DNA from: Chondrosia reniformis
Taxonomy: Eukaryota > Porifera > Demospongiae > Chondrillida > Chondrillidae
Assembly (NCBI GenBank): GCA_947172415.1
Contig: OX359195.1
Location: 6,051,501 to 6,115,500, forward strand
DNA length: 64,000 nt
Reading direction: 5' to 3'
Within the stretch, counting starts at the first letter, position 1. Every line of letters begins with the position of its first letter. Under the pieces are notes generated by a model. The model was given only the letters and a program-made list of their open reading frames with translations. It did no database searches and was not told the origin of the DNA. The translations under genes and the position numbers were made by a program. Positions 1,340-62,548 of this stretch are shown piece by piece.

Positions 1340-1703
1340 ATGGCGGAGGGAGGATATGACAGAATCGCTACCGAAGTCGAGAGTATAATTAGAAAACATT
1401 ATACTAGTCTTTTGAAAAAGCTTAATGTACAACAACTGGTGGACTACTTGTACGAGAGGAAAATGGTGAGCGGATCATTGATGGAGAAGATAGAAAAGGC
1501 AGACAGTCGACAAGAAGCCAATAAAGTGTACATCGACCATCTCGTCTCGAATGGCACACTGTCTACTATACAAAGGTTCGCTGAATTACTTGTCGACACC
1601 TCTGATAAACTCTGTAACGAATTACACAGGGAATGGGGAACTACTTTACTGAAGGAAGTTAAAAAGAAGAACGGAGGAGGGGCTGAGCGCCTAGAACAAC
1701 TAC
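1340..1703 (+). CDS. CARD-like domain exon 1 (unit 1, gene otherwise broken)
   Basis: Starts at ATG 1340, conserved in all copies, and ends at CTAC|GTAAGT, phase 1 (121 codons plus 1 nt). The product is all-helical, with spaced hydrophobics typical of a CARD/death fold: an IIRKHY..LLKKL helix, LVDYLYE, VSGSLMEKIE, then ANKVYIDHL and FAELLVDTSD. CARDs make homotypic contacts in apoptosis and innate-immune signalling; that role here is inferred from the fold. The exon itself is open. Downstream in this unit, exon 2 and most of exon 3 are deleted and the GTPase exon is cut off, so the gene is probably dead unless it splices to the later exons 2 and 3 at 7036 and 7551. Confidence 0.7.
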
Positions 1704-2159
1704 GTAAGTAAGACTTTTGATTTAATAATGGTATACAGGACCCTTAGACACAAAGCGCATTAAAGGAGGGCGGTCTAGATCTGCCTCCTGGGTATCCGCC
1801 CCCATTTGTTAATATAGGGACGCCCGTATATTCTTTTCATTGCATGAGGCTAAGTACACTACTTTCTCGCCCCCGCGCAATTATCGTCGGCTGGCAGGAA
1901 GTAAGGGATAGCAAGCCAGACTACATTGGGGCGAGCCCGTCGAACGCGGATGTTGTCTGTATATTATTACTATTACTATTATTATTATTTGAGTGCACCG
2001 TGTGCAGTTGCACACTAAGGCTATATTGTGCCCCATGTAGCAGTATACAAAGCATACACAAACAAAATTGGATAGTTCTATACAATGTTCTGATTATATT
2101 TTGCATCAATACACCACATGCAATTGCTGTATATCTTCATGCGACTAGTCTCCTTACGT

Positions 2160-3340
2160 AGCCCCATACCAACTTTGCATTCTCTCCATTCTCCAATAGT
2201 TGTGGAGTTTCAGAACCATTTAGTTCAAGCCACCATATATATTTACCATTCCTCCTTTTAAAATTTCTCTCGACTGTCACCCTCTCTGTTTTATCCCAAC
2301 TAACAGAGGCCGCTATTTCCCTTCGAACTTTTTTGACCGACATGCATGTATTAACCTGCCTGTCCCCCACAATTTCCTAATTCCCTTCCTTTTTAACTCC
2401 TGCATGGTCTTTCTTCATGACCCCTGAACCCGTAACCGTCTCCACTTCTTTTTCATAATACCTTTTCCTTTGCCTCCTCTTCTCAGCCCTTTTGCCGTCC
2501 ATCAAATCGCCAAGTTGAATATACCGTATGGACTAAACTTTCATGGTTTGCCATCCGTGAAAGTTTAGTCCCACAAAAATTTAGAGCTTTAAAAGTGCAA
2601 TCGAAATTACCAGGTACATCCATTTTAGAATGCAATGACGTCATAGTTTGCAATCTGGCTACCGTGAGTTGGGGCAACATTTTTGGGACCAGAATCGCCA
2701 CTAAAGGGACTAATTGTGTCGACCAGTTAGAGAAAGCTGGAATATTATGAGGAAGCATCTGTGAAAATAACATGAATAACCGAAAACCGCGAAAGTTTAG
2801 TTCCGCGAAAATTTAGGTCCATACGGTATTCACAGCATATTTCCAATTTGTTGATAAGCCGTCTAATTTCCTCCACTTTCGCTTCAGTACTCTGTATCAA
2901 ATCCACAATTCTACCTTCGATGTCCCCCCTAAAAGAGTGAAGTCTTTCTTTCATTTCTGTAAACTCTTTCCTACTGACCTCTTCTCTGTCTACAAGCGCT
3001 TGGCATTTGATCGTCGTACAGAAAAAGCAAAGGAAGTGAACATCATCCCTAGCAACAACCACCTGAACAACTCTGTAGCAAGATGGATGTGACCAACACA
3101 TGCAGCCTTCGCAACAAACCCAGCCTTTCCTGTCCTTAGCTGCAGATTCCCTTTTCTTCCCACAAATGCAGCTTATTATATCAGTTTTGCTGGGAGTTTT
3201 TACTGACGACTCTTTCACCTCCCTCCCCTTTTTGCTTCCTGTAAAATCCCTTTCCGCCCTCGCACAGGTGTCTCAAACCCCCCTTTGCGACTTCATCTTG
3301 CAAACTAACAACTCTTGCTCCTTTTACTGGCATTTCTTTT
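2160..3340 (-). CDS. PHD-finger / coiled-coil ORF, probable LINE ORF1 (interrupted)
   Basis: Minus-strand frames encode a PHD-type zinc finger: CICGKK, then a CCEGCMCW block, HPSC, and FLCFFC (C4HC3-like spacing). A charged helical stretch follows (RKEFTEMKERLHSFRGDIEG, then EAKVEEIRRLINKLE) that should form a coiled coil. PHD plus coiled coil is known from ORF1 proteins of some non-LTR retrotransposons; that assignment is inferred, and no reverse transcriptase lies beside it. A MITE (2524-2826) splits the frame after INKLE, and further basic sequence (KKVRREIAAS and following) continues in another frame beyond it. A near-identical copy lies at 42050-43240, and only the distal end survives near 27.1-27.4 kb. 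Confidence 0.45.
2524..2826. mobile_element. TA-flanked MITE with CCGTATGG termini
   Basis: Terminal inverted repeats are CCGTATGGAC... and ...GGTCCATACGG, with subterminal inverted GGACTAAACTTTC / GAAAGTTTAGTTCC. Flanking TA on both sides (2522-2523, 2827-2828) fits a TA target duplication as in Tc1/mariner or related families. It sits inside the PHD-finger ORF. The copy at 42403-42722 keeps a longer left terminal repeat. Confidence 0.75.
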
Positions 3341-3429
3341 CACCACCAACTTCAGCTTCGTCTACTATGTATATTGGTAGCCAATATAAATATCTCAATA
3401 CACAAACATACAATCAGGGAAATTAATAT

Positions 3430-4957: not shown

Positions 4958-5130
4958 ATACATGCAACAGTTGGTGATATAATGATTTCTCCAGAAGATT
5001 CTTCAATTCTGATAATTGGTCCTTTTGGTCATGGTAAAGCCACTTTTTTGCGTTTCTTTTGTCAGAATGCAGACGGTTTTAAAGCACCATACCAAATCAG
5101 AGGTGTTAAGAGGTTTAAAGGGAAGGTATA
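4958..5130 (+). pseudogene. Truncated GTPase exon 4 (unit 1)
   Basis: After acceptor TTTATAG the exon reads HATVGDIMISPEDSSI and then the P-loop region GPFGHGKATFLRFF. Homology to the other GTPase exons stops at about 5130, just before the TPGF motif, and unrelated sequence follows in frame, giving an 81-residue chimeric ORF (5016-5261). It keeps only the Walker A strand and helix and cannot be a working GTPase. Confidence 0.75.
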
Positions 5131-7035: not shown

Positions 7036-7367
7036 CACCTACTCCTTTGAAAGGCGTTTCAATGGAGCTAATGAATGAATACATAAGGATAAAGAACACC
7101 TTTCGTGAAACTTGTAAAAGAGGGCTACCACCTTCTCTAGAAGATCTGAAGACATTTTGCTGTGACCAGATAGAAGCTGACTTTAAAGATCAGCCAAAGT
7201 ATATCAAAGCAAGAGATGACATTAAGCATTGTAACAATCTGGAGATTCTGCTTTGCATATTATTCTTTCGTTTGAATAAATGGATCAGTTTTGATTTTCT
7301 GGAGCGAGTTGTGGATTACTTTAAACCGACACTCAAATTAGTAGCCAAGGAAATAGAAGATTACAAG
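7036..7367 (+). CDS. Exon 2, helical linker (unit 1/2)
   Basis: Acceptor TTTAG at 7035 and donor ACAAG|GTATG; 332 nt, open, phases 1 and 0 as in the intact genes. It encodes PTPLKGVSMELMNEYIRIKN, SLEDLKTFCCDQIEADF and a closing helix WISFDFLERVVDYFK. That W-I-S-F-x-FLE motif recalls a helical domain I associate with multi-domain immune-type proteins of sponges and cnidarians; this is recollection, not a search result. The exon is intact, but its gene is not: exon 3 beside it is broken. Confidence 0.65.
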
Positions 7368-7550: not shown

Positions 7551-7792
7551 ATCAAATTGAAGCCTTTTCTTGAAGAAAGGTTGACTACAACATACACACT
7601 ACAACAGATCCACAAGGAGGAGTGTGAAACTGAAGAAGGATTCCTAAAACTAGCTGTACACTATGGACTGGATGCAGGTGGTTTGCGAGTGAAAGATTTG
7701 TTAGAAGAGCGAGACTTTCTTGCTGACAGTTTGGAGATTCCTAGATACTTATTGATGCCACTGACATGGAGGAGGGGAACTCCATCACAATA
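7551..7792 (+). pseudogene. Exon 3, truncated (unit 1/2)
   Basis: Acceptor TATACAG then IKLKPFLEERL and HYGLDAGGLRVKDLLEERDF, as in the intact exons. A 1-nt deletion near the RRGNS codons shifts frame, and homology ends at about 7792, before VYWTLEEL and the donor. It lacks the last ~50 codons. Confidence 0.75.
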
Positions 7793-9890: not shown

Positions 9891-9892
9891 TA

Positions 9893-10268: not shown

Positions 10269-12940
10269 ATACATGCAACAGTTGGTAATATAATGGTTAT
10301 CGGTACGATCGAGGGAACCACACTAGCCAAAATCAACTTAGAATAGATTCCAAACGTTTCGGTCCAATCCAGGACCTTCATCAGTGGAATTAACACTTAC
10401 AAAACTGAGATGGCAGACTTTATACACATGAAAAAAAGCGGAAATAAGGTGTGAATAAATGTGTTGCTAGGGGATGACAGCTTGCATGCATGAGGTATAA
10501 GTCCTGTTGTTTAACTGTGATGTGATATACTGGTATAATGGAATATAAAGTAACTGAAATATGCTAACATGCAGTGACACAGTCTAATAATCAAGAGGGG
10601 ATAAGTGGGTTGTACACCCCTGGCAGCGGGCCTTCATCTCGGTTCATCTTATGCCGTTCTGTTCGGATGTGCCAGGCTTCAAGGGTGCATCTCTGGCGGT
10701 ACCGATGGTTGTGGTCCACCACTTCTGCATCCTCCCACTTGATGGTGTGGTCCTCCTCCATGGCATGCTCTGCCACCGCTGACTGGGCTGCCTCGCCTAA
10801 CCTCAGGGCCCTCTTGTGCTCTGTGAGGCGGTGCTTCAGCGTCCTGCTGGTCTGACCGATGTAGACTTTGGGGCAGTTTCCACAAGGAATCCTGTAGACT
10901 ACACCAGTTCTTTGCGGTGCCGGGGTTGGGTCCTTCACTCTGACCAGTGACTGTCGCAGTGTGCAGTGTGGTCGGAAGCATGTTCGAATTCCCAGTGGGC
11001 TGAGAATCCTCCGGATGCATTCCGACAGATGGCGGATGTAGGGGAGGGTTACGGTGGCCTTCGGCACATCCTCGTCAGGGTTGCAAAGTGGGGAAGTTGA
11101 GGGGTGCCAGTCCCTAGCAACTAGGCTTCCAGGATAGCCATTGTTGTGGAGGGCCTGTGCAACGTGCTTCTTCTCCTTCTCTCTATCTGGTACATCAGTA
11201 CATGCATGCATGCAAGCTGTCATCCCCTAGCAACACATTTATTCACACCTTATTTCCGCTTTTTTCATGTGTATAAAGTCTGCCATCTCAGTTTTGTAAG
11301 TGTTAATTCCACTGATGAAGGTCCTGGATTGGACCGAAACGTTTGGAATCTATTCTAAGTTGATTTTGGCTAGTGTGGTTCCCTCGATCGTACCGATATG
11401 CAAGAACCTAGCCACGCAGAAGTCCTTCACATAATATAATGGTTTCTCCAGAAGATTCTTCAATTCTGACAATTGGTCCTTTTGGTCATGGTTAAGCCAC
11501 TTTTTGCGTTTCTTTTGTCAGAATGAAGATGGCTTTAATACACCGCACCACATCAGATGTGTTAAGAGGTTCAAAGAGAAGACATACCACGTTTTTAAGA
11601 TCCCAGGCTTTGTAGCACCAGCTGAGTTAAATGAGGGTTAAATTGCTGAGTTAGGCTTGAAATTCTTGGAGGAAGTTATTTGTGCAAGCAGGAGAAGCCA
11701 TAACTGCATTATTTTTAGTGTACAATCCTCACACTGGCGAGGTGTCCCATTCCATGGATCAACTGCTGCAAGCAGTCAAAATTTCTTGGAATCACACTAT
11801 TTTGGTGGTTACACATGCATCTACGTTCTTGCCTGCAAAATCGGAACAAGATCAATATCGATATTGGAATGCCTACTTGGAGAGTGATGGCTGCCCTAAA
11901 TCCCTGAAAGAAATGGTAAAAAGAGTAAATAACCGCTGCCTACTAGTAGAAAGTGTACCAACAAAGAATGAAAAATACTGCAATACTATAGCTGAGAGGT
12001 GTGTGGAAATGTTAGACCGTATTCAGAAGGATCATGGTGTTTACAGAAATAGTTTGTTTCTAAGTGCTCGTGAAGAGGCTACAAAGAAGTTGCTCAAGTC
12101 CTATAAATCCTTTGGTAATAATGTGCAATTCAGAAAAGTGATAGATTAACAAAAGGAAGTTTTGAGGACTTGAAGATGCAGGTAATGCAATTTCAGGAAA
12201 AATATCGAGCACTGATTCATTTGGTCAAAGAAATAGCTAAGGAGTTTCAAGAATTTCTTAAAACTCTGGAGTCTGCTAAGAAAGGTGGTAAAAATGCTAT
12301 AGTTACTGGTGTTGCAGGAGGCATTGGATTGGGGGTTTTGGGTGGCATTTTGGCACCATTTACTGCGGGAGTATCTTTAGGTCTCTTAACAGCAGGTGGA
12401 GTAGCAGTTGGGGCTGGAATCGGAACCGGTGCAGTCGTATGGGGGATAACCAACCTTATAGAGAAGTTTGAGGAAGAAGATGTGATTAGAAAGGCCGAAG
12501 GTCCAGTCCGAGAGTATAGAGAAGATCTAATTGCCTTCTACGAGACTTACGATGTGGTGACAGCCAAACTAAAAGAGAGCATTTTTAGCTTATTAGATGG
12601 TTCACAGATTGATGAAGATGCTTTTGTAGCTGCTATTTGCTTGGCTCTGGGTGTAAAGGAGAACGATGTCACTACTGCTTCAGATGTGATTCAGAAGATA
12701 ATATTTTTTCATGTGTTTCGTGGGAATAATGAAGAATTAAAGCAATCATTAGGCAAAATAGCAGCCGGTTTTGGAGAATTTAATCAAAGTACCAGTGCAG
12801 CTGAAGTAGCTGCTCGTACCTTCCTCTTGGCTCACAAAGAAGGTATGCCAATTGACCACTACTTACTTGAAGCTATCAAATTAATGGAGATTGAACTGGA
12901 AGCATTGGAAAATTTGAGTAATTTGAGTAATTTGAATTAA
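10269..12940 (+). pseudogene. GTPase/ApoL-hairpin exon 4, unit 2, split and frameshifted
   Basis: The acceptor TTTATAG at 10268 starts the exon, which is split at the initial IM codons by a Penelope-like element and resumes at 11432. The P-loop region is out of frame (GGTTAAGCC where others have GGTAAAGCC), KI-AEL carries a stop, and frame changes occur near 11690 and 12150. The C-terminal part 12170-12940 is open for 256 codons, including the glycine-rich hairpin (GGIGLGVLGGILAPF), and ends ENLSNLSNLN like the intact genes. The high similarity of this tail suggests recent loss or gene conversion. Confidence 0.8.
10299..11431 (-). mobile_element. Penelope-like element fragment with GIY-YIG domain
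   Basis: The minus strand encodes a GIY-YIG endonuclease-like domain: GVVYRIPCGNCPKVYIGQTS, then LKHRLTEHKRAL, and VAEHAMEEDHTIKWEDAEV. This is the C-terminal domain typical of Penelope-like retroelements. About 193-bp inverted repeats flank it (10299-10492 and 11204-11397), with a ~34-bp extension on the right. The 13-bp direct repeat TAATATAATGGTT (10286-10298 and 11432-11444) is the target-site duplication in the GTPase exon. No reverse transcriptase is seen; the copy is short and defective and looks fairly recent. Confidence 0.85.
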
Positions 12941-14149: not shown

Positions 14150-14939
14150 TTTATATAGGTCTCCATCTGGTAGAAAATGGAGGACAAAGTCTGCATATAA
14201 AATGCCATAGGACTATAGAAAAGCTATAGTAAATTTAAATTTATATTGAAACCAATTGCAAGTGTTATGTTATATTGATAAAAATTATCAATTGGTCATG
14301 TAGATCACTGTGAAACCAACATACATGTGTATGACAAACGTCTGGCGAAATATTGCTTAATTAAAGTTGCAAAATAATCAAGATATAATGATCCCCAGGC
14401 ATTTTACGTAGCTACACTTTTGTCACACTTAATCAATATAATATATGTAATTTGGCAGAGTGGATCTATGGTATAATATGAGTGATATGAAGATATAGTG
14501 TGTCCTTTTAGTTTGACATTTTGAACATCTATAGAATTGTAGTTTGTATGACTTTTGTCAACTCTGAGAAACTTCTTCATTTACCTCAAAATTGAGAGAT
14601 TAACCACTTAAACACTAAGTTCAACACAGAAGATTCTATTTCTGTATATCCTCTTGCCATTCCTTAGCTGATGGTGAGGTTAAGCGAGGAAAGTGAGTGC
14701 TGTCAACGCCTCCAAGCCTACATTGAGAGCTTGCTTATCAATGTTATGAATAAACATCCTGAATTACTGGAAGTCAAGACTTCTAAATAGTAATTTAGTA
14801 ATTTTATTATATACAATACAGTTTTAGTGTAACTTTCTCCCTTTTTTAATATTGTAAGTATGTTTATATATGTATGTAAATTTCTGTGCAGTAACTTAAT
14901 ATATACGTACCTGGTTCCAAGTAAATGATACACACACAT
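14150..14939. other. 3' flank, no gene seen
   Basis: Right part of family R and then sequence shared with 51160-51880 and 63100-63830. Short ORFs, mostly on the minus strand (TTYIILI..., 51301-51585 and 63253-63555), drift between copies and show no domain. It is intergenic between the GTPase exon and the next exon 2. Confidence 0.5.
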
Positions 14940-15214
14940 ATAAGGACAAGTTTCGCGATACTTGTAAAGAAGGTCCACCTTCTCTGGAAGATCTAAAGAC
15001 GTGTTGCTGTGACCAAATAGAAGCTGCCTTTAACGATCGGCCAAAGTACACTAAAGCAGAAAATGATGTTGAGCTATGTAAAGATCTGGAGAAGATGCTT
15101 CGTATATTATTCTTTCGTTTGAATAAATGGATCAGTTTTGAGTTTCTGGAGCGAGTTGTGGATTACTTTAAACTGACACTTGAATCAGTGGTCAAGGAAA
15201 TAGAAGACTACAAG
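14940..15214 (+). pseudogene. Exon 2, 5' end missing (unit 2 Kelch copy)
   Basis: Starts inside the exon at KDKFRDTCKEGPPSLEDLKT and runs to the normal end EDYK|GTATG. The acceptor and first ~20 codons are absent and no exon 1 precedes it locally. Confidence 0.7.
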
Positions 15215-15401: not shown

Positions 15402-15803
15402 ATCAAATTGAAGCCTTTTCTTAAAGAAAGGTTGACTAAAATACACGAGCTACAACAGATCCACAAGGAGGAGTGTGAAACTGAAGAAGGATTCCTAAAA
15501 CTAGCTGTACACTATGGACTGGATGCAGGTGGTTTGCGAGTGAAAGATTTGTTAGAAGAGCGAGACTTTCTTGCTGACATATTGGAGATTCCTAGATACT
15601 TATTGATTCCCCAGACATGGAGGAGGGGAAACTCCATCACAATAGTGTACTGGACATTGGAGGAACTCGAGGAATCAGTCACTGAACAAATCAGAGTTAA
15701 GAAATCAGAGCTGATAGCTCACAAAATTGAGTGGATCCAATTAGGGAGTCTAGATCGTATTGTGATTGATCTTCAAGCAAAGTCTGTAAAAGATATGTCA
15801 ACC
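15402..15803 (+). CDS. Exon 3, Kelch type (unit 2)
   Basis: Acceptor TGTACAG and donor ACC|GTAAGT; 402 nt, phase 0 on both sides, open. It encodes IKLKPFLKERL, YGLDAGGLRVKDLLEERDF, RRGNSITIVYWTLEELEESV and ends DRIVIDLQAKS..DMST. The tail differs from the GTPase-type exon 3 (IDHHTMFENM), so the 3' end of this exon tracks the kind of terminal exon. Confidence 0.65.
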
Positions 15804-16601: not shown

Positions 16602-17510
16602 GTTTTCAGAAGTGACCTACTTTTACAGGGTCACACTGTAAAGTCAACCATGCTGCCTGACATGCCTGTACCAACCGCTGGAGCTACAGCCTGTATTGCA
16701 GGGAGTGATATATTTGTTTGTGGTGGAGTGTGCAATGACTCACAAAATAAAAGAATAGTGCAACAATTCAACTTGGAAGATGGCAAATGGACTACACTTC
16801 CTCCAGCTCCACATTACAATTGTCATGCAGCAGTCATAAATGGCCTCCTAACATTGATAGGAGGTCTAGATTCAGAGACCAGGAGAGTTACCAGACAACT
16901 ATCAACTTTTATAGAACACAAATGGAAGACTGTCTACCCACCAATGCCAACAGAGAGAAGAGAACCCTCCGTACTTTACCATGACAACTTCCTCATTGTA
17001 GCTGGAGGATGATTAGAGAGTTCAGTTCTAACCGACAGTATTGATGTAATGAACACATCAACAAAGGAATGGATCCAGCCAAGACACCTGACACTACCAC
17101 AACCATTGTCAGGCCACCAAATGACACTCTGCAAAGATAGGCTGTATGTTTTCAGTTGCCTTAATCGTGAGCTATGGAGTATTCCAATCATTGACATCAC
17201 TCAAACTGTAAATAATGAAGAAATTTCAACAGCAATAAAATAGAAAGAAGGGAGACCACTATTCCTGTCATATTTAGATCCTTCCATCTTGCAAACCAGT
17301 GTATTACCAGTGGTAATGGATTTTTTCTTAAATGATATTCTTGTGTATGATGACACTGAGGACAAGTGGATCAAAGTTGGAAAGTGCAGTGTAAACCGAA
17401 TTATGGCTACCTCATTATCAATCAGTCCCGAGTCATTCATTGTGCTCGGTGGAATAAGTAATATCGATTGGAAACAATTATCTTCTGTTGAATTACTGAA
17501 GATTAACTAA
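16602..17510 (+). pseudogene. Kelch terminal exon, unit 2, with stops
   Basis: Acceptor TTTCTCAG, then VFRSDLLLQGHTVKSTMLPD. Kelch signatures follow: hydrophobic-GG pairs (FVCGG, LIGG, IVAGG) each followed downstream by a W. In-frame stops lie at 17010-17012 (after VAGG) and about 17241 (in the K-W-KEG segment), with local length changes. Full length is otherwise kept to the end VELLKIN. The homologous exons at 20949, 37351 and 52606 are open. This is the only Kelch exon that is broken, and it follows the PLE-broken GTPase exon. Confidence 0.8.
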
Positions 17511-18856: not shown

Positions 18857-19271
18857 ATGGCGGAAGGAGTTGGATATAACAGGAACGTTAAAGAAGTCGA
18901 GATTATCATTAAAATACATTATACGAGACTTTTGGAACAGCTAAATGTAACAAATCTGGTCGACTACTTGTACGAGAAGGGATTCGTGAGCGGACAATTG
19001 AAGGAGAAGATAGAAATAAGAACGAAATCAGACGGTCGACGAGAAGGCAATAAACTATACATTGACCATCTCGTCTCGAATGGCACACTGTCCACTTTAG
19101 AAAAGTTTGCTCAATTACTCATCGACACCTCTGATAAACTCTGTAACGAAGTACACAGGGAATGGGGAACTACTTTATTGAAGGAAGTTGAAGAGAAGAA
19201 TGGGGGAGTGGCTGAGCGCCTGGAACAACTACGAATAAGTAGGACGCCTGTACAATTTATGTCTCTTAAAA
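18857..19271 (+). CDS. CARD-like exon 1 of Kelch gene (unit 3)
   Basis: ATG 18857 is the homologue of the other starts; an in-frame ATG at 18821 is possible but not conserved. The CARD-like helices are kept (LLEQLNVTNLVDYLYEKGF, NKLYIDHL, FAQLLIDTSDKL) but this is the most diverged copy (EIRTKSDGRREGN insertion). The usual donor CTAC|GTAAGT is mutated to CTACGAATAAGT; the next donor, AAAA|GTAAGA at 19271/19272, keeps phase 1. The reading frame also runs straight through the 36-nt interval into exon 2, so retention would still be coding. With exons at 19308, 19767 and 20949 it would make a CARD-linker-Kelch protein of about 682 residues. Confidence 0.65.
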
Positions 19272-19307: not shown

Positions 19308-19636
19308 CATCTGCTCCTATGAAAAACCTTCAAATCATGCTAACCAACGAATACATAAGGATTAAGGACAAGTTTCGTGATGCTTGTAAAGAAGGTCCAC
19401 CTTCTCTGGAAGATCTAAAGACGTGTTGCTGTGACCAAATAGAAGCTGCCTTTAACGATCGGCCAAATTACACTAAAGCAGAAAATGATGTTGAGTTATG
19501 TAAAGATCTGGAGAAGATGCTTCGTATATTATTCTTTCGTTTGAATAAATGGATCAGTTTTGAGTTTCTGGAGCGAGTTGTGGATTACTTTAAACTGACA
19601 CTTGAATCAGTAGCCGAGGAAATGGAAGACTACAAG
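19308..19636 (+). CDS. Exon 2, helical linker, Kelch gene (unit 3)
   Basis: Acceptor TATTTAG, donor TACAAG|GTATG; 329 nt, phases 1 and 0. Encodes SAPMKNLQIMLTNEYIRIKD, then SLEDLKTCCCDQIEAAFNDR and WISFEFLERVVDYFKLTLES. It has the short form of the variable segment between CCDQIE and the ...ELCKDLE helix. Confidence 0.7.
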
Positions 19637-19766: not shown

Positions 19767-20168
19767 ATCAAATTGAAGCCTTTTCTTGAAGAAAGGTTGA
19801 CTAAAATACACGAGCTACAACAGATCCACAAGGAGGAGTGTGAAAATGAAGAAGGATTCCTAAAACTAGCTGTACACTATGGACTGGATGCAGGTGGTTT
19901 GCGAGTGAAAGATTTGTTAGAAGAGCGAGACTTTCTTGCTGACAGATTGGAGATTCCTAGATACTTATTGATTCCCCAGACATGGATGAGGGGAAACTCC
20001 ATCACAATAGTGTACTGGACATTGGAGGAACTCGAGGAATCAGTCACTAAACAAATCAGGATTAAGAAATCAGAGCTGATAGCTCACAAAATTGAATGGA
20101 TCCAATTAGGGAGTCTAGATCGTATTGTGATTGATCTTCAAGCAAAGTCTGGAAAAGATATGTCTACC
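19767..20168 (+). CDS. Exon 3, Kelch gene (unit 3), acceptor mutated
   Basis: Open, 402 nt, IKLKPFLEERL to SGKDMST|GTAAGT. The position of the usual acceptor reads GTACAT|ATC instead of GTACAG|ATC, so the AG is lost. Splicing would need another AG (for example the in-exon TTGAAG, in which case a few residues would be lost), or the gene is non-functional. All other features are intact. Read conservatively, this is a candidate gene with one doubtful splice site. Confidence 0.6.
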
Positions 20169-20948: not shown

Positions 20949-21851
20949 GTTTTCAGAAGTGACCTACTCTTACAGGGTCACACTGTAAAGTCAACCATGC
21001 TGCCTGACATGCCTATACCAACTGCTAGAGCTACAGCCTGTATTGCAGGGAGTGATATATTTGTTTGTGGTGGAGTGTGCAATGACTCACAAAATGAAAG
21101 AATAGTGCAACAATTCAACTTGGAAGATGGCAAGTGGAATACACTTCCTCCAGCTCCACAATTCCGTTGTCAAGCAACAGTCATAAATGGTCTCTTAACA
21201 TTGATAGGAGGTCTAGATTCCGAGACCAGGAAAGTTACCGGACAACTATCAACTTTTATAGAACACAAATGGAAGTCTGTCTACCCACCAATGCCAACAG
21301 AGAGATTCCAACCCTCCGTACTTTACCATGACAACTTCCTCATTGTAGCTGGAGGACTGATTTGTTTGGATACCGACAGTATTGATGTAATGAACACATC
21401 AACAAAGGAATGGATCCAGCCAAGACACCTGACACTACCACAACCATTGTCATACCACCTAATGACACTCTGCAAAGATAGGCTGTATGTTTTCAGTTGC
21501 CTTAATAGTAAACTATGGAGTATTCCAATCATTGACATCACTCAAACTGTAAATAATGAAGAAATTTTGACAGCAATAAAATGGAAAGAAGGGAGACCAC
21601 TATTCCTGCCACATTTCTTTTCTTCCATCCTGCAAACCAGTGTATTACCAATGGTAATAGATCAAATCTCAAATGATATTCTTGTGTACGATGCCACTCA
21701 GGACAAATGGATCAAAGTTGGAAAGTGCAGCGTACACCAAAGATTGGCTACCTCATTATCAATCAGTCCCAAGTCATTCATTGTGCTCGGTGGAATAAGT
21801 AATATCGATCGGAAACAATTATCTTCTGTTGAATTACTAAAGATTAACTAA
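20949..21851 (+). CDS. Kelch beta-propeller terminal exon (unit 3)
   Basis: Acceptor TTTCTCAG; 903 nt with stop, open throughout. Kelch blades are marked by FVCGG, LTLIGG, LIVAGG and FIVLGG (about residues 25, 71, 119 and 265 counted from MLPD), a glycine-poor blade at YVFSC, and the W of W-[NT]-TLPPAP, W-KSVYPPMP, W-IQPRHL, W-SIPII and W-IKVGK, so five or six blades. Kelch propellers bind protein partners, often as ubiquitin-ligase adaptors, but no BTB or BACK domain precedes this one. The partner is unknown. A CARD-linked Kelch domain without BTB is unusual. Confidence 0.8.
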   Translation, partial: VFRSDLLLQGHTVKSTMLPDMPIPTARATACIAGSDIFVCGGVCNDSQNERIVQQFNLEDGKWNTLPPAPQFRCQATVINGLLTLIGGLDSETRKVTGQLSTFIEHKWKSVYPPMPTERFQPSVLYHDNFLIVAGGLICLDTDSIDVMNTSTKEWIQPRHLTLPQPLSYHLMTLCKDRLYVFSCLNSKLWSIPIIDITQTVNNEEILTAIKWKEGRPLFLPHFFSSILQTSVLPMVIDQISNDILVYDATQDKWIKVGKCSVHQRLATSLSISPKSFIVLGGISNIDRKQLSSVELLKIN

Positions 21852-48102: not shown

Positions 48103-48495
48103 ATCAAATTGAAGCCTTTTCTGGAAGAAAGGTTGACTACAACATACACACTACAACAGATCCACAAGGAGGAGTGTGAAACCGAAGAAGGATTCCTAAA
48201 CCTAGCTGTACACTATGGACTGGATGCAGGTGATTTGCGAGTGAAAGATTTGTTAAAAGAGCGAGACTTTCTTGCTGACAGATTGGAGATTCCTAGATAC
48301 TTATTAATTCCCCAGACATGGATGAGGGGAAACTCCATCACAATAGTGTACTGGACATTGGAGGAACTCAAGGAATCAGTCACTAAACAAATCAGGGTTA
48401 AGAAATCAGAGCTGATAGCTCACAAAATTGAATGGATCCAATTAGGGAGTCTAGATCGTATTGTGATTGATCATCACACAATGTTTGAAAACATG
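48103..48495 (+). CDS. Exon 3, GTPase type, gene B
   Basis: Acceptor GTACAG, donor ACATG|GTATG; 393 nt, phase 0. IKLKPFLEERLTTTYTLQQI, MRGNSITIVYWTLEELKESV, tail IDHHTMFENM. Confidence 0.75.
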
Positions 48496-49047: not shown

Positions 49048-50589
49048 ATACATGCAACAGTTGGTGATATAATGATTTCTCCAGAAGATTCATCAATTCT
49101 GACAATTGGTCCTGTTGGTCATGGTAAAGCCACTTTTTTGCGTTTCTTTTGTCAGAATGAAGATGGTTTTAAAGCACCACACCAAATCCGAGGTGTTAAG
49201 AGGTTTAAAGAGAAGGTATACCACGTTTTCAAGACCCCAGGCTTTGAAGCACTAGCTGAGTTAGATGAGGCTAAAATTGCTAAATTAGGCTTGAAATTCT
49301 TGGAGGAAGTTAAAAATGTCTTTGTGCAAGCAGGAGAAGCCATAACTGCACTATTTTTAGTGTACAATCCTCACGCTGGTGAGGTGTCCCATTCCATGGA
49401 TCAACTGCTGCAAGCAGTTAAAATTTCTTGGAATCACACTATTTTGGTGGTTACACATGCATCTACATTCTTGCCTGTGAAATCAGATTCTAAACAAGAT
49501 CAATATCAACGTTGGAATGCCTACTTGAAGAGTTCTGACTGCCCTAAGTCTCTGAAAGAAATGGTAAAAAGAGTAAATAACCGCTGCCTACTGGTAGAAA
49601 GTGTACCAACAAAGAATGAAAAATACTGCATTACTATAGCTGAGAGGTGTGTGGAAATGTTAGACCGTATTCAGAAGGATCATGGTGTTTACAGAAATAG
49701 TTTGTTTCTAAGTGCTCGTGAAGAGGCTTCAAAGAGGTTGCTCAAGTCCTATAAATCCTTTGGTAATAATGTGCAATTCAGAAAAGTGATAGATGAACAA
49801 AAGGAAGGTTTTAAGGACTTGAAGATGCAGGTAATGCAATTTCAAAAAAAAAATCGAGCACTGATTCCTTTGATCAAAGAAATAGCTAAGAAGTTTCAAG
49901 AATTTCTTAAAACTCTGGAGTCTGCTAAGAAAGGTGGTAAAATTGCTGCAGTTACTGGCGTTGCAGGAGGCATTGGATTGGGGGTTTTGGGTGGCATTTT
50001 GGCACCATTTACTGCGGGAGCATCTTTAGGTCTCCTAATAGCAGGTGGAGTAGCAGCTGGGACTGGAATCGGAACCGGTGCAGTCGTATGGGGGATAAGC
50101 AAGCTTATAGAGAAGTTTGAGGAAGAAGATGTGATTAGAAAGGCCGAAGGTCCACTCCGAGAGTATAGAAAAGATCTAATTGCCTTCTACGAGACTTACG
50201 ATGTGGTGACAGCCAAACTAAAAGAGAGCATTATTAGCTTATTAGATGGTTCACTGATTGATGAAGATGCTTTTGTAGCTGCTATTTGCTTGGCTCTGGG
50301 TGTCGAGGAGAACGATGTCACTACTGCTTCAGAGGTGATTCAGAAGATAATATTTTTTCATGTGTTTCGTGGGAATAATGAAGAATTAAAGCAATCATTA
50401 GGAAAAATAGCAGCTGGTTTTGGGGAATTTAATCAAAGTACCAGTGCAGCTGAAGTAGCTGCTCGTACCTTCCTCTTGGCTCACGACGAAGGTATGCCAA
50501 TTGACCACTACTTACTTGAAGCTATCAAATTAATGGAGATTGAACTGGAAGCATTGGAAAATTTGAGTAATTTGAGTAATTTGAATTAA
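49048..50589 (+). CDS. AIG1-like GTPase + ApoL-like hairpin exon 4, gene B
   Basis: Acceptor TTTATAG, 513 codons plus stop. P-loop GPVGHGKAT (F to V against gene A), KTPGFEA, TILVVTHA. An SDSK insertion adds two residues before QDQYQRWNAY, and the hairpin reads GGILAPFTAGASLGLLIAGG. The C-terminal 130 residues are almost the same as in gene A. Membrane effector role inferred as for gene A. The following Kelch exon at 52606 has no exon 3 of its own. Confidence 0.8.
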   Translation: MHATVGDIMISPEDSSILTIGPVGHGKATFLRFFCQNEDGFKAPHQIRGVKRFKEKVYHVFKTPGFEALAELDEAKIAKLGLKFLEEVKNVFVQAGEAITALFLVYNPHAGEVSHSMDQLLQAVKISWNHTILVVTHASTFLPVKSDSKQDQYQRWNAYLKSSDCPKSLKEMVKRVNNRCLLVESVPTKNEKYCITIAERCVEMLDRIQKDHGVYRNSLFLSAREEASKRLLKSYKSFGNNVQFRKVIDEQKEGFKDLKMQVMQFQKKNRALIPLIKEIAKKFQEFLKTLESAKKGGKIAAVTGVAGGIGLGVLGGILAPFTAGASLGLLIAGGVAAGTGIGTGAVVWGISKLIEKFEEEDVIRKAEGPLREYRKDLIAFYETYDVVTAKLKESIISLLDGSLIDEDAFVAAICLALGVEENDVTTASEVIQKIIFFHVFRGNNEELKQSLGKIAAGFGEFNQSTSAAEVAARTFLLAHDEGMPIDHYLLEAIKLMEIELEALENLSNLSNLN

Positions 50590-52605: not shown

Positions 52606-53508
52606 GTTTTCAGAAGTGACCTACTCTTACAGGGTCACACTGTAAAGTCAACCATGCTGCCTGACATGCCTATACCAACCGCTGGAGCTACAGCCTGTAT
52701 TGCAGGGAGTGATATATTTGTTTGTGGTGGAGAGTGCAATGACTTACAAAATGAAAAAATAGTGCAACAATTCAACTTGGAAGATGGCAAATGGACGACA
52801 CTTCCGCCAGCTCCACATTACAATTGTCAAGCAGCAGTCATAAATGGCCTCCTAACATTGATAGGAGGTCTAGATTCCGAGACCAGGAAAGTTACCGGAC
52901 AACTATCAACTTTTATAGAACACAAATGGAAGTCTGTCTACCCACCAATGCCAACAGAGAGATTCCAACCCTCCGTACTTTACCATGACAACTTCCTCAT
53001 TGTAGCTGGAGGACTGATTTGTTTGGATACCGACAGTATTGATGTAATGAACACATCAACAAAGGAATGGATCCAGCCAAGACACCTGACACTACCACAG
53101 CCATTGTCATACCACCAAATGACACTCTGCAAAGATAGGCTGTATGTTTTCAGTTGCCTTAATAGTAAATTATGGAGTATTCCAATCATTAACATCACTC
53201 AAACTGTAAATAATGAAGAAATTTCGACAGCAATAAAATGGAAAGAAGGGAGACCACTATTCCTGCCACATTTCTTTTCTTCCATCCTGCAAACCAGTGT
53301 ATTACCAATGGTAATAGATCAAATCTCAAATGATATTCTTGTGTACGATGACACTCAGGACAAGTGGATCAAAGTTGGAAAGTACAGCGTACACCAAAGT
53401 TTGGCTACCTCATTATCAATCGGTCCCAAGTCATTCATTGTGCTCGGTGGAATAAGTAATATCGATCGGAAACAATTATCTTCTGTTGAATTACTAAAGA
53501 TTAACTAA
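52606..53508 (+). CDS. Kelch terminal exon, unit B
   Basis: Acceptor TTTCTCAG, open for 300 codons. FVCGG, LTLIGG, LIVAGG and FIVLGG blades. It has lost exons 1-3 of its own copy; the nearest in-phase donor upstream is exon 3 of gene B (48495). It stays open despite that, so use as an alternative last exon of gene B is possible. Recent loss of the upstream exons is the other explanation. Confidence 0.75.
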   Translation, partial: VFRSDLLLQGHTVKSTMLPDMPIPTAGATACIAGSDIFVCGGECNDLQNEKIVQQFNLEDGKWTTLPPAPHYNCQAAVINGLLTLIGGLDSETRKVTGQLSTFIEHKWKSVYPPMPTERFQPSVLYHDNFLIVAGGLICLDTDSIDVMNTSTKEWIQPRHLTLPQPLSYHQMTLCKDRLYVFSCLNSKLWSIPIINITQTVNNEEISTAIKWKEGRPLFLPHFFSSILQTSVLPMVIDQISNDILVYDDTQDKWIKVGKYSVHQSLATSLSIGPKSFIVLGGISNIDRKQLSSVELLKIN

Positions 53509-55291: not shown

Positions 55292-55667
55292 ATGCATACA
55301 ATTCACTCACCACCTCCTCTCCAATTTATCCAGTTGCAGTCAATGTCTTTTAGTGTGACTTATAGACCCTTGTGGTTGGGCTGTCTTTACTGATTTCAGT
55401 TTTGTATAGCATGTCACAATAATAAACAATCATTATTATTATTATTTTTAACCCTTAACGTTATCAATGTCTTGTCTCTACTGTATGCGTATGTTTGTGT
55501 TAGTCTGTATCCTAGCAATGCATCCATGCTGATCTTAAAGTGTTGGTATATAGGTACTCTGTCTGGTTTGAAGGCAAGCTCTGGTAAAGCTGATCCAATG
55601 TACACTAAAAGTAAAGTCCAAATAGTCAAGTCGTCTTGAGACCAATCTGCAGTAACATGGACAGCAT

Positions 55668-55812
55668 GTCCACTTTACAAAAGTTTGCTCAATTACTCGT
55701 CGACGCCTCTGACAAATTGTGTAACGAAGTACACAAGGAATTGGGAACAACTTTATTGAAGGAAGTTGAAGAGAAGAGTGCATGGAGGAGTGGCTGAGCG
55801 CCTGGAACAACT
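55668..55812 (+). pseudogene. 3' part of CARD exon 1, copy 2
   Basis: Same 5' truncation and 4-nt change as 24003-24152, so the remnant was duplicated with the unit. Confidence 0.7.
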
Positions 55813-55922
55813 ACGAATAAGTAGGACGCCTGTATAGTTTATGTCTCTTAAAAATGTACAATTTATGTTTCACAAAAGTAAGCCTTATTTTAAATATGTA
55901 TACGTATTTAATTTTTATTTAG

Positions 55923-56150
55923 CCTACTCCTATGAAAAACCTTCAAATTAAGCTAACCATCTAATACATAAGGATTAAGGGTAAAGAAGGTCCACCTTCT
56001 CTAGAAGATCTAAAGACGTGTTGCTGTGACCAAATAGAAGCTGCCTTTGACGATCGGACAAAGTACACCAAAGCAGAAAGTGATGTTGAGCTATGTAAAG
56101 ATCTAGAGAAACTACTTCGCATATGATTCTTTCGTTTGAATAAATGGACT
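55923..56150 (+). pseudogene. Exon 2 remnant without the palindromic insertion
   Basis: Acceptor TTTATTTAG then CCTACTCC (two bases short), a stop at CCATCTAATAC, the same KFRDACK deletion as 24261, and a stop at CATATGATTC. It continues through TTCGTTTGAATAAATGG, the uninterrupted target site of the element at 24466-26046. Confidence 0.75.
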
Positions 56151-56363
56151 AAGACAACATATACGTGTATATTTAAATTTTGTTATAGTTGAAGTCTGTA
56201 GCTAAAGTGAAAATTAATGTGATATCATCATTTTCTTGTACATATATGATTAATTGACATGCATATGAAATGAAAAAGTAGACGATTACAGGAAGCAGGG
56301 CTAATAATCCAATATTATTATTGGGTGTATCCTTTAGGTTCCCACGCTTAAATAGACCGCAAT

Positions 56364-56997
56364 ATGGCGGAGGGAGGATATAACAGAATCTTTACTAGTC
56401 TCGCGTAGCCAGACCGCTTTCACCAGGAGGGAAAGGGTCTGGTATAATGCCTATACGCGGCTTGTACAGAGCCCCCCGGAAGAAGGGGGTGATAATTGCA
56501 TTCCACACCTCGCGTCACCCGGCAACCGGCCGCCCACCGACTACCGGTGTTGCGTAAACAATCGTCCGAAGCCCATTTGCACAGTGCGAACGAACGCCAC
56601 CCGGAGATGCTCTAATCGACGATTCGAGCGACGTGAGCGAGGGGCGGTTTAGCAGCGTTCTAGGCTTTCAATTACATCGACAGTAGTGCACATTCCTGTT
56701 AAGCGCCACCAATGGGCTTCGGACGATTGTTTACGCAACACCGGTAGTCGGTGGGCGGCCGGTTGCCGGGTGACGCGAGGTGTGGAATGCAATTATCACC
56801 CCCTTCTTCCGGGGGGCTCTGTACAAGCCGCGTATAGGCATTATACCAGACCCTTTCCCTCCTGGTGAAAGCGGTCTGGCTACGCGAGACTAAATCTTTA
56901 CCGAAGTCGAGAATATAATTCAAAAACATTATACTAGCCTTTTGGATAAGCTTGATGTAGAAAAACTGGTGGACTACTTGTACGAGAAGAAAATGGT
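56364..56997 (+). pseudogene. CARD exon 1 split by a foldback and cut short
   Basis: ATG 56364, MAEGGYNRIFT, then the insertion 56396-56892, resuming EVENIIQKHYTSLLDKLDVE. It ends at EKKMV at about 56997, where the sequence joins the right arm of the palindromic element. It cannot encode the domain. Confidence 0.8.
56396..56892. mobile_element. MULE-like foldback element (497 bp)
   Basis: Ends TAGTCTCGCGTAGCCAGACC and GGTCTGGCTACGCGAGACTA; arms of about 190 bp pair almost fully (GGAGGGAAAGGGTCTGG, CCGGCAACCGGCCGCCCACC). A 9-bp AATCTTTAC duplication (56387-56395 and 56893-56901) is typical of Mutator-like elements. Markedly more GC-rich than its surroundings. No ORF. Confidence 0.85.
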
Positions 56998-57388
56998 GGC
57001 GTCTGCAATCGTATTCGGAGTCTGAAGGACGACCGTAGCTATAGCTGGCCGGCAAAACTATTAAAGAATATCCAGGAATCTGATTGGCGCTTGTGATCTG
57101 CACCAATTGCCGGATCAATAGCCGCGAAATGAACGTCTTGCCGGATCAATAGCCACTGCGTTGAACAAATGGACTAAGACAACATATACGTGTATATTTA
57201 AATTTTGTTATAGTTGAAGTCTGTAGCTAAAGTGAAAATTAATGTGATATCATCATTTTCTTGTACATATATGATTAATTGACATGCATATGAAATGAAA
57301 AAGTAGACGATTACAGGAAGCAGAGCTAACAATCCAATATTAATATTGGGTGTGTCCTTTAGGTTCCCACGCTTAAATAGACCGCAAT
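56998..57388. repeat. Duplicate of 25884-26272
   Basis: From GGCGTCTGCAATCGTATTCG on, nearly base-for-base the right arm of the palindromic element and the 5' flank of gene A. It marks a breakpoint of the segmental duplication that made exon-1 copy C. Confidence 0.75.
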
Positions 57389-57751
57389 ATGGCGAAGGGA
57401 GGATATAACAGAATCTTTACCGAAGTCGAGAATATAATTCAAAAACATTATACTAGCCTTTTGGATAAGCTTAATGTAAAAAAACTGGTGGACTACTTGT
57501 ACGAGGAGAAAATGGTGAGCGGACCATTGATGGAGAAGATAGAAAAGGCAGACAGTCGACGAGAAGCCAATAAAGTGTACATCGACCATCTCCGCTCTAG
57601 TGCACAGTGTCCACTTTACAAAAGTTCGCTCAATCACTCGTCGACACCTCTGATAAACTCTGTAACGAAGTACACAGGGAATGGGGAACTACTTTACTGA
57701 AGGAAGTTAAAAAGAAGAATGGAGGAGGGGCTGAGCGCCTAGAACAACTAC
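57389..57751 (+). pseudogene. CARD exon 1 of GTPase gene C, 1-nt deletion
   Basis: MAKGGYNRIFTEVENIIQKH as in gene A, then a single G is missing at CTCTAGTGCACAG (others CTAGTGGCACAG), so the frame leaves the CARD after DHLRSS. The donor CTAC|GTAAGT is kept. The rest of the exon is intact in the old frame. Gene C is therefore probably inactive from this start. Confidence 0.75.
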
Positions 57752-57822
57752 GTAAGTAAGACTTTTGATTTAATAATGGTATACAGGACCCTTAGACACA
57801 AAGGGCATTAAAGGAGGGCGGT

Positions 57823-59582: not shown

Positions 59583-59914
59583 CACCTACTCCTTTGAAAG
59601 GCTTTCCAAGGGAGCTAATTAATGAATACATAAGGATAAAGAACAACTTTCGTGAAACTTGTAAAAGAGGGCTACCACCTTCTCTAGACGATCTGAAGAC
59701 ATATTGCTGTGACCAGATAGAAGCTGCCTTTGATGATCAGCCAAAGTATATCAAAGCAGAAGATGACATTGACCATTGTAACGATCTGGAGAAGCTGCTT
59801 CGTATATTATTCTTTCGTTTGAATAAATGGATCAGTTTTGAGTTTCTGGAGCGAGTTGTGGATTACTTTAAACCAGCACTTAAGCCAATGGCCAAAGAAA
59901 TAGAAGACTATAAG
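59583..59914 (+). CDS. Exon 2, helical linker, gene C
   Basis: Acceptor TATTTAG, donor TATAAG|GTATA; 332 nt, open. Short variable segment (EAAFDDQPKYIKAEDDIDHC). WISFEFLERVVDYFKPALKP. The donor is GTATAT rather than GTATGA. Confidence 0.7.
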
Positions 59915-60101
59915 GTATATGCCAATTTGGCTGTCACTGATTTCTGAATCATAACATTAAAATTATTATGAATATGATCATTTTTTTGTAAAGTATACTG
60001 CCAAAGTATAATCTATCAAGTTCCAAAATTCAGACATTTAGTTAAATATTTTCAAAAATGCCTCCAATAATATTATAATTTATTGTTGAATGTACATGCA
60101 G

Positions 60102-60500
60102 ATCAAATTGAAGCCTTTTCTTGAAGAAAGGTTGACTAAAATATACGAACTGCAACAGACCCACAAGGAGGAGTGTGAAAATGAAGAAGGATTCCTAAAA
60201 CTAGCTGTACACTATGGACTGGATACAAAAGATTTGCGAGTGAAAGATTTGTTAGAAGAGCGAGACTTTCTTGCTGACAGATTGGAGATTCCTAGATACT
60301 TATTGATTCCCCAGACATGGAGGAGGGGAAACTCCATCACAATAGTGTACTGGACGTTGGAGGAACTCAAGGAATCAGTCACTAAACAAATCAGGGTTAA
60401 GAAATCAGAGCTGATAGCTCACAAAATCGAGTGGATCCAATTAGGGAGCTCGAGTCTAGATCGTATTGTGATTGATCACCACACAATTTTTGGAAGCATG
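60102..60500 (+). CDS. Exon 3, GTPase type, gene C
   Basis: Acceptor CATGCAG, donor GCATG|GTATG; 399 nt, open. Two extra residues (GSSSLDR for GSLDR) and tail IDHHTIFGSM. TKDLRV replaces AGGLRV. Confidence 0.7.
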
Positions 60501-61017
60501 GTATGTGTTCCTTGTTTACGTATATATATAACTACATTCCTCTATAGTCAACTACAATAGGAATAGTAATCATATATAGCTAGCTTGTATACATCCAATC
60601 TTCATATATAAATTATACCATTAATACTAAAAATATACTAAATAAGGCTTCCTAATTTAAAAATTGCATGCAAAATTCTGAACAATCCTTGTAAATGACT
60701 GTTTATTATCAGCCAAGTGACTGTAGTCTTATCTTGGTTGGGACACCAATGTCCTATTAAAGTGGCAACCAGTGACTCACCACTGATGAATCCTAAAAGG
60801 GGGGAAATAGCTGTTTGTTGTTCTTTGATGATGTTTTCCATGACTGGGAAGCACTAGTTGCTAAATGAATAGAACTTCACTATAACCAATTAAGGTAGAC
60901 TTAGTCACTTGCATGGTGGATTCAGCATAAAATTTACTACTTACATCGTTCATTGTAGTGATTATACGTATGACATACACACTCAAGAGAATGTGTGATT
61001 TTCTTGTATTTTTATAG

Positions 61018-62548
61018 ATTCATGCAACAGTTGGTGATATAATGATTTCTCCAGAAGATTCATCAATTCTGACAATTGGTCCTTTTGGTCATGGTAAAGC
61101 CACTTTTTTGCGTTTCTTTTGTCAGAATGAAGATGGCTTTAATACACCGCACCAAATCAGAGGTGTTAAGAGGTTTAAAAAGAAGGTATACCACGTTTTC
61201 AAGACCCCAGGCTTTGAAGCACCAGCTGAGTTAGATGAGGCTAAAATTGCTGAATTAGGCTTGAAATTCTTGGAGGAAGTTAAAAATGTCTTTGTGCAAG
61301 CAGGAGAAGCCATAACTGCACTATTTTTAGTGTACAATCCTCATGCTGGTGAGGTGTCCCATTCCATGGATCAACTGCTGCAAGCAGTCAAAATTTCTTG
61401 GAATCACACTATTTTGGTGGTTACACATGCATCTACGTTCTTGCCTGCAAAATCGGAACGAGATCAATATCAACGTTGGAATGCCTACTTGGAGAGTGAT
61501 GGCTGCCCTAAATCCCTGAAAGAAATGGTAAAAAGAGTAAATAACCGCTGCCTACTGGTAGAAAGTGTACCAACAAAGAATGAATACTGCAATACTATAG
61601 CTGAGAGGTGTGTGGAAATGTTAGACCGTATTCAGAAGGATCATGGTGTTTACAGAAATAGTTTGTTTCTAAGTGCTCGTGAAGAGGCTTCAAAGAGGTT
61701 GCTCAAGTCCTATAAATCCTTTGCTAATGATGAGCAATTCAGAAAAGTGATAGATGAACAAAAGGAAGGTTTTAAGGACTTGAAGATGCAGGTAATGCAA
61801 TTTCAAAAAAAATCGAGCACTGATTCCTTTGATCAAAGAAATAGCTACGGAGTTTCAAGAATTTCTTAAAACTCTGGAGTCTGCTAAGAAAGGTGGTAAA
61901 ATTGCTGCAGTTACTGGCGTTGCAGGAGGCATTGGATTGGGGGTTTTGGGTGGCATTTTGGCACCATTTACTGCGGGAGCATCTTTAGGTCTCCTAATAG
62001 CAGGTGGAGTAGCAGCTGGGACTGGAATCGGAACCGGTGCAGTCGTATGGGGGATAACCAAACTTATAGAGAAGTTTGAGGAAGAAGATGTGATTAGAAA
62101 GGCCGAAGGTCCACTCCGAGAGTATAGAGAAGATCTAATTGCCTTCTACGAGACTTACGATGTGGTGACAGCCAAACTAAAAGAGAGCATTATTAGCTTA
62201 TTAGATGGTTCACAGATTGATGAAGATGCTTTTGTAGCTGCTATTTGCTTGGCTCTGGGTGTCAAGGAGAACGATGTCACTACTGCTTCAGATGTGATTC
62301 AGAAGATAATATTTTTTCATGTGTTTCGTGGGAATAATGAAGAATTAAAGCAATCATTAGGCAAAATAGCAGCTGGTTTTGGAGAATTTAATCAAAGTAC
62401 CAGTGCAGCTGAAGTAGCTGCTCGTACCTTCCTCTTGGCTCACAAAGAAGGTATGCCAATTGACCACTACTTACTTGAAGCTATCAAATTAATGGAGATT
62501 GAACTGGAAGCATTGGAAAATTTGAGTAATTTGAGTAATTTGAATTAA
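61018..62548 (+). pseudogene. GTPase/ApoL-hairpin exon 4, gene C, frameshifted
   Basis: Acceptor TTTTTATAG; P-loop GPFGHGKAT, KTPGFEA, TILVVTHA. At the A-run in QFQKK (about 61804-61812) two bases fewer than in gene B shift the frame, so the GTPase half (ORF to 61869) and the hairpin half (from 61829) are in different frames. One codon (K of NEKYC) is also missing. Otherwise the hairpin and C-terminus match gene B. A homopolymer error in the assembly is a real alternative. Confidence 0.75.

Follow-up and report, generated by a model that had tools for sequence, protein, structure and literature searches.

The closest described relatives of the locus reported here are the NCOA6-clade TRADD-N expansions of Amphimedon, Crassostrea and Branchiostoma (PMC8195603, in its accessible sections), which are large and lineage-specific and share Death-like domain(s), an RRM/ACT-like domain and a variable C-terminus, in some cases a beta-propeller or an AIG-GTPase. 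In the sponge Amphimedon, 1-3 Death-like domains followed by TRADD-N and a variable C-terminus are found in 357 proteins, and the TRADD-N C-termini of the oyster C. virginica include both AIG-GTPases and beta-propellers (PMC8195603). Another precedent is provided by the snail Biomphalaria glabrata, whose DD-CARD + AIG1 + coiled-coil genes place a CARD-type death domain N-terminal to AIG1; "partial" AIGs without motifs are reported in the same paper (PMC7053062, in its accessible sections). Here we describe an array of modular genes in the demosponge Chondrosia reniformis (kidney sponge; genome of 117,379,552 bases in 15 contigs), lying in a stretch of 64,000 nucleotides, chr7:6,051,501-6,115,500, which is called the window below. 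A CARD front end is followed in this array by one of two kinds of terminal exon, a Kelch exon or an exon with an AIG1 fold and a hydrophobic hairpin, and its plan, also much expanded, appears by analogy to resemble the published Death-like + TRADD-N + variable C-terminus expansions.

The differences are as follows. In the sponge array the death fold is a CARD, the module that follows it has an extra helical half and no Pfam TRADD-N match, and neither the Kelch nor the AIG1-fold + hairpin end figures in the list given for Amphimedon in the text of PMC8195603. Unlike the array, the snail genes are not credited with a TRADD-N-like module or Kelch sister genes in the accessible sections of PMC7053062. 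The sponge CARD-NACHT-LRR receptors (PMC12909245, accessible sections) are likewise multi-copy, of immune type and with an N-terminal CARD, whereas the array lacks NACHT and LRR: no Pfam match to either was obtained in the ten exons scanned, which represent each of the five exon types. As for the KLHL/Keap1-type ubiquitin adaptors, the C-terminal Kelch propeller is alike, but the array has a CARD and a module in place of BTB-BACK. The initial annotation of the window, made from the sequence by itself, held the arrangement not to be a described system, which is too strong in view of the TRADD-N and snail genes cited above; a CARD + module + Kelch or a CARD + module + AIG1 fold + hairpin gene in one array was not found described in open-licence full texts.

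Exon plan and state of the copies

A modular array with two kinds of terminal exon is real, and it overruns both ends of the window, extending by tblastn over chr7 ~6.017-6.117 Mb. The modules were mapped by tblastn with five queries (E1, E2, E3, G and K) in the window and its flanks, 40 kb on the upstream side and 8 kb on the downstream side. The exon plan is E1 (CARD), E2 (helical), E3 (weakly RRM/ACT-like) and a terminal exon, either K (Kelch) or G (AIG1 fold + hydrophobic hairpin). The junction phases are constant, as initially annotated: 1 between E1 and E2, and 0 between E2 and E3 and between E3 and either G or K. The terminal exons follow each other in the order K2 K3 G4 K5 / G6 K7 K8 G9 K10 G11 K12 G13 / K14 (slashes are the window ends), with a lone E1 standing before the unit of K2. 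Nine terminal exons had been claimed for the window, in the order G, G, K, K, G, K, G, K, G, and eight are present: the first G is a 57-residue fragment between E1 and E2 of unit 6, while the remaining order stands. A shared front end had been placed before each terminal exon; it is indeed modular, begins with a CARD and serves two end types, but it is complete in few units only. The features of the window are the following.

1340..1703, +, E1 (CARD exon) of unit 6; tblastn, Pfam CARD 23.9 bits; donor gtaagt, phase 1; end placed from the 364-nucleotide E1 exons of units 9 and 11
4958..5128, +, 57-residue 5' G-exon fragment with its own splice acceptor, inside unit 6, not terminal
7036..7367, +, E2 of unit 6
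7551..7784, +, E3 of unit 6, alignable over the first 78 of 127 positions only
11433..12940, +, G6, AIG1-fold/hairpin exon, a pseudogene copy with stops, frame breaks and a 5' insertion
14915..15214, +, E2 of unit 7, 5' end replaced; the unit has no E1
15402..15803, +, E3 of unit 7, K-type end; 3' end by analogy with unit 8
16602..17510, +, K7, Kelch exon interrupted by two in-frame stops
18857..19271, +, E1 (CARD) of unit 8; CARD 19.7 and CARD_2 23.1 bits, both under cut-off
19308..19636, +, E2 of unit 8
19767..20168, +, E3 of unit 8, acceptor AT instead of AG
20949..21851, +, K8, Kelch exon; 95% identity to K12, which itself has a Pfam Kelch match
23962..24478, +, E1 and E2 fragments
26273..26636, +, E1 (CARD) of unit 9; Pfam CARD 23.1 bits, slightly under cut-off
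31487..31836, +, E2 of unit 9
32003..32395, +, E3 of unit 9, G-type end
32898..34433, +, G9, AIG1-fold probable pseudo-GTPase with hydrophobic hairpin; Pfam AIG1 29.6 against a cut-off of 27
36141..36542, +, E3 of unit 10, which has no E1 or E2; 3' end by analogy with unit 8
37351..38253, +, K10, Kelch exon, frame open, acceptor present
41223..41586, +, E1 (CARD) of unit 11; Pfam CARD 23.9 bits
47615..47964, +, E2 of unit 11
48103..48495, +, E3 of unit 11
49048..50589, +, G11, AIG1-fold probable pseudo-GTPase with hydrophobic hairpin
52606..53508, +, K12, Kelch exon (Pfam Kelch), frame open, without E1-E3 of its own
55624..57013, +, E1, E2 and E1 fragments
57389..57753, +, E1 (CARD) of unit 13, frameshifted
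59583..59914, +, E2 of unit 13
60102..60500, +, E3 of unit 13
61018..62548, +, G13, frameshifted AIG1-fold/hairpin exon

In the array with its flanks, a complete front end, an open frame and canonical splice signals are combined in 4 of the 13 terminal exons: G9 and G11, the only such units inside the window, and K2 and G4 in the flanks. Their spliced products have 880 (unit 9), 882 (unit 11), 880 (unit 4, G) and 685 (unit 2, K) residues. Unit 8 would yield 682 residues, but the acceptor of its E3 is AT, the exception among 11 E3 copies, the other ten of which have AG. The remaining copies are damaged in various ways. K7, without E1, carries stops and not a frameshift; K10 has neither E1 nor E2; for K12 no E1-E3 was found by tblastn at E 1e-4; G6 has stops and an insertion, G13 and the E1 of unit 13 are frameshifted, and the E3 of unit 3 is interrupted by an in-frame stop. 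The intron between E1 and E2 is only 36-39 nucleotides long and in frame in units 2, 3 and 8, all of K type, so that its splicing is uncertain and it may be retained; in unit 8 both exons lie in one 276-residue open frame, the intervening 36 nucleotides being an intron or retained sequence.

Several other frames lie among the exons. The insertion at the 5' end of G6 (10300-11400) has inverted terminal stretches (by eye) and contains a 211-residue minus-strand frame, which we take to resemble a GIY-YIG/Penelope-like element. On the minus strand, the first intron of unit 6 (2745-3272) and that of unit 11 (42907-43176) share a repeated frame that has a Cys-rich, PHD-finger-like stretch (by eye) and is probably derived from a mobile element. 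At 58764-59168, also on the minus strand, a 134-residue frame consists mostly of tandem copies of an 11-residue unit (MTQDQTCESVI with variants).

Domains of the front end and of the two ends

E1 is predicted to encode a CARD death fold, in agreement with the initial annotation. The Pfam CARD model (cut-off 23.9) gives 23.9 in two of the four array E1 exons scanned and 23.1 and 19.7 in the others, it matches none of 14 prokaryote control genomes, and a CARD-exon profile finds caspase-9 CARDs at E 5e-4 and ICEBERG at E 0.03. E2 and E3, regarded at first as mere linkers, are instead a domain pair, which in paralogs lies in a single open frame. Structure modelling of this pair is of low confidence (predicted local distance difference test, pLDDT, 65.5; predicted template modelling score, pTM, 0.39), and E3, its second half, may doubtfully be called RRM/ACT-like. 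TRADD (1F3V) is not among the 50 matches listed for the RRM/ACT-like prediction, profile searches of solved structures with E2-E3 or with E3 returned nothing significant, and PF13820 has across the whole genome one weak candidate on chr9, coinciding with no E2-E3 copy. The uS motif of TRADD-N is a tiny residue followed by Ser in the beta2-beta3 turn (PMC8195603, accessible sections). The Ser of this turn is invariant in 10 of 10 E2-E3 paralogs, preceded by Gly in eight and Asp in two, and it is conserved in the six E3 copies of the window, which read GNS or GDS.

The K exon is a Kelch exon: K12 scores 59.1 bits with Kelch_1, in three stretches. No BTB/BACK match was obtained with Pfam in the seven E1-E3 exons scanned, and the Kelch end without BTB, as first annotated, is thereby upheld. 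Seven of the eight K exons have a stop-free frame, K7 being the exception.

The G exon has an AIG1/GIMAP-type fold. Its Pfam AIG1 score in G9 exceeds the cut-off; the assignment is nevertheless carried by the fold match and not by Pfam, because the AIG1 model also matches 12 of 14 prokaryote control genomes. As compared with GIMAP/IAN GTPases, three nucleotide-binding residues (the Ser/Thr of G1, the Asp of G3 and the Asp at the G4 position) are absent in all four readable array copies. G4, G9 and G11 read GHGKA, KTPG and THA.T, while paralogs on chr1 and chr4 retain GHGKS and DTPG. Since these residues are lost, the domain is probably a pseudo-GTPase; of the "AIG1-like GTPase" originally proposed, the fold is retained and the enzymatic activity is probably wrong. 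The hydrophobic hairpin of the G exon is supported, but its description as ApoL-like stands less well: the Pfam ApoL model, which matches 0 of 14 prokaryote genomes, scores 19.2 and 19.9 in the two array copies tested (cut-off 25.9), and the hairpin region of the G model (residues 289-349) has a pLDDT under 50. The likeness to ApoL and to ClyA-type alpha-pore formers consists in a helical region, a Gly/Ala-rich hydrophobic stretch and weak profile matches, and a pore is putative.

Relatives elsewhere in the genome

Several combinations of these domains occur in single open frames outside the array. A 638-residue frame on chr1 carries CARD_2 + AIG1 and a 674-residue frame on chr4 AIG1 + ApoL (ApoL 46.9), all over the Pfam cut-offs, and a 458-residue frame on chr1, made up of two overlapping pieces, joins the E2-E3 module to a P-loop GTPase with an AIG1 match at the same place. 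Thus, the joins of CARD, of ApoL and of the module with AIG1 do not depend on predicted splicing alone. The join of the module with Kelch has no single-frame example in the examined frames of this genome. On chr4 at 0.67 Mb a CARD or CARD-like match adjoins AIG1. At chr9:1.846-1.8545 Mb three successive CARD-like exons, with hydrophobic segments between them (by eye), precede an AIG1 exon of 74 bits with intact P-loop and DTPG; the CARD-like exon scanned is below the CARD cut-off. Across the whole genome the AIG1 model, which also matches most prokaryote controls, has 44 matches (E 0.001), counted per stretch and not per gene. Since Amphimedon is said to have no AIG1 genes (PMC7053062, accessible sections), the AIG1 repertoire of sponges looks patchy. 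The three protein-database searches, two of which scored only the candidates with most words in common, returned 2, 6 and 2 rows, the last two being the first two; the window's own protein is among them, and P0007 is 100% identical to the query.

Association of CARD and Kelch exons over the whole genome was suggested by at least 126 Kelch-exon matches (126 of 226 candidates were scored), but it was not supported on chr2 and was rejected. Of the 58 Kelch exons there, only 8 are preceded by a listed CARD exon on the same strand at a distance of up to 8 kb, and 20 have a CARD exon downstream; these counts are lower bounds, obtained with 143 of 148 CARD rows (four array fragments and one chr10 row being left out) from a search that scored 150 of 227 candidates. 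A "1 TAG" in most Kelch matches was considered as recoding and rejected; it is read as the end of a splice acceptor, the array having CAG there.

Other arrangements were observed in passing. At chr10:0.54 Mb an E1-type CARD (45% identity) is C-terminal in a long frame with a Roc-like GTPase (Roc 26.5, cut-off 27), which suggests a ROCO-CARD-like protein; three such CARDs in frames of more than 1000 residues are on chr10 among the CARD matches listed. At chr1:10.274 Mb a Death domain exon is followed on the same strand by an E2-E3 module, by further frames and by a BTB-BACK frame of KLHL type. Kelch exons of the same family stand 0.7-1.3 kb behind a protein-kinase exon (by Pfam) on the same strand at both of the two loci examined (chr9:5.05 Mb and chr14:1.07 Mb), and a kinase-Kelch family is possible. 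In two loci at chr2:2.8-2.9 Mb (L049 and L067) collagen-like frames lie ~1.5-3.5 kb upstream of Kelch exons on the opposite strand; the transposase-like frames at L067:710-2527 are presumably of the CENP-B/pogo type.

Origin and possible action of the array

CARDs mediate homotypic assembly, Kelch domains provide binding surfaces, and hydrophobic hairpins insert into membranes. Tentatively, and with a confidence that falls somewhat short of an even chance, we regard the array as a tandem cluster that evolves by birth and death and encodes cytosolic CARD proteins, each with a Death-like domain, a TRADD-N-like module and a variable C-terminus, whose K and G proteins co-assemble. The common CARD and E2-E3 front end would lead, across phase-0 introns, into either of two ends: the Kelch end, likely serving for recognition or substrate binding, and the G end, likely a membrane-acting executioner or regulator in which the GIMAP fold is combined with an ApoL/alpha-pore-former-like hairpin. 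The K and G proteins, if expressed, would most likely co-assemble by CARD-CARD and possibly E2-E3 contacts; Kelch binding would nucleate CARD assemblies and expose the hairpin of the recruited G protein, the dead GIMAP domain acting as a scaffold or lock. A sensor/effector role in immunity, as supposed in the initial annotation, is putative. In published work on sponges, GIMAP-family genes are among those that respond to symbionts in Dysidea avara (PMC11229196), and CARD- and Kelch-containing transcripts change after exposure to microbe-associated molecular patterns, in separate rows (PMC6208332; both sources in their accessible sections). In the simplest history of the array, a K-G block was duplicated repeatedly and underwent conversion and loss.

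A number of results weigh against this proposal. The array is known here from genomic sequence alone; no Pfam TRADD-N model matches the E2/E3 proteins scanned, and the E2-E3 model is the low-confidence one given above. At the G end the AIG1 model is shared with prokaryote controls, ApoL stays under its cut-off in the array and the hairpin is poorly modelled. None of 10 exon sets shows significant purifying selection among the array copies, so that parts of the array may evolve neutrally, and in 9 of 13 terminal exons the front end, the frame or a splice signal is defective. These nine, with their stops (K7, G6, E3 of unit 3), frameshifts (G13, E1 of unit 13) and lost acceptor (unit 8), also speak for a mostly decaying tandem family, a graveyard with few living genes, in which the K-G alternation is a by-product of two-gene block duplication. 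Nonsynonymous/synonymous ratios near neutral are consistent with it (the pooled pairwise ratios, up to 1.86, use non-independent pairs), and so are the G-to-K spacers, related blocks ~87-98% alike in their main aligned pieces, from which a fairly recent block duplication follows. However, the array retains three G genes (880-882 codons) and one K gene (685 codons) in fully intact form, and in neutral simulation of the Kelch exon ~75 substitutions, the K2-K8 distance, produce a stop in 94% of cases, yet 7 of 8 K exons are stop-free (the copies are related, so this is indicative only). We consider such a graveyard somewhat unlikely. Nor is there a robust excess of amino-acid changes in any of the 10 exon sets; positive selection on E1 of the G-type units (48:8, p 0.047 uncorrected over the 10 sets, the other nine being non-significant) is not claimed. 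That the Kelch ends diversify as individual- or partner-specific surfaces, for discrimination of self from non-self or of symbionts and not for defence against pathogens, would fit the 63 amino-acid-changing codons among 78 variable Kelch codons (seven copies, K7 left out) and the blocks of changes common to non-adjacent copies, such as K7 and K10, as from gene conversion; the excess over the neutral expectation falls short of significance (79:21, against 0.73 nonsynonymous expected, p 0.18), as does the clustering of changes (p 0.067), and we hold this to be very improbable. As to an assembly artefact of collapsed or duplicated haplotypes, tandem near-identical blocks are difficult to assemble, but the assembly is chromosome-level, with a quality value of 69.8 and Hi-C data (PMC12181767, accessible sections), and the array copies have individual deletions, fragments and order, so we give it almost no credence.

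The spacers bear on another explanation, namely that a G unit and the K behind it are one gene, a single E1 giving transcripts that end in G or, if G is skipped, in K; through loss of the redundant E1, E2 or E3 before K, tandem genes would have become a single gene with two ends. Behind each of the five G exons (G4, G6, G9, G11, G13) stands a K that has no E1 of its own, which makes alternative terminal exons possible, and skipping of G keeps the frame because both E3 junctions are in phase 0. The orphan K exons retain E2-E3 (K5, K7), E3 only (K10) or nothing (K12, K14): as compared with the G4-K5 spacer, a stretch with E2 and E3 is missing from G11-K12 and G13-K14, and one with nearly all of E2 from G9-K10. 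The Kelch exons behind these reduced spacers (K10, K12, K14) stayed open, as did K5, that is, four of five orphans, and the K acceptor is kept in all five. On the other side, this explanation too is drawn from the genomic sequence; K7 has stops; the four open orphans show no purifying selection (39 nonsynonymous:7 synonymous sites, 0.85 vs 0.74 expected, p 0.095), and their open frames may be luck, a stop arising in 38% of simulations after 12 changes and in 60% after 22. Moreover, AATAAA is missing within 700 nucleotides after the stop in 7 of 8 K exons and present at +60 in 4 of 5 G exons. Taken together, we regard alternative terminal exons as unlikely, and as distinctly improbable the bolder form of the idea, an immune gene with two ends in the making, its one CARD front end being alternatively spliced to a Kelch sensor or to a hairpin executioner held by a dead GIMAP domain.

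The array presents, in one locus, a constant death-fold front end that swaps its C-terminal ends by means of phase-matched exons in proteins of immune type, and it may connect CARD with a membrane effector of GIMAP/ApoL type in a sponge. If one gene can end in either K or G, the co-evolution of sensor and effector could be tested directly, and one promoter would set the dosage of sensor and killer. Should the executioner be true as well, one of the earliest animal lineages would have a CARD effector of cell death that depends on neither gasdermin nor caspase.

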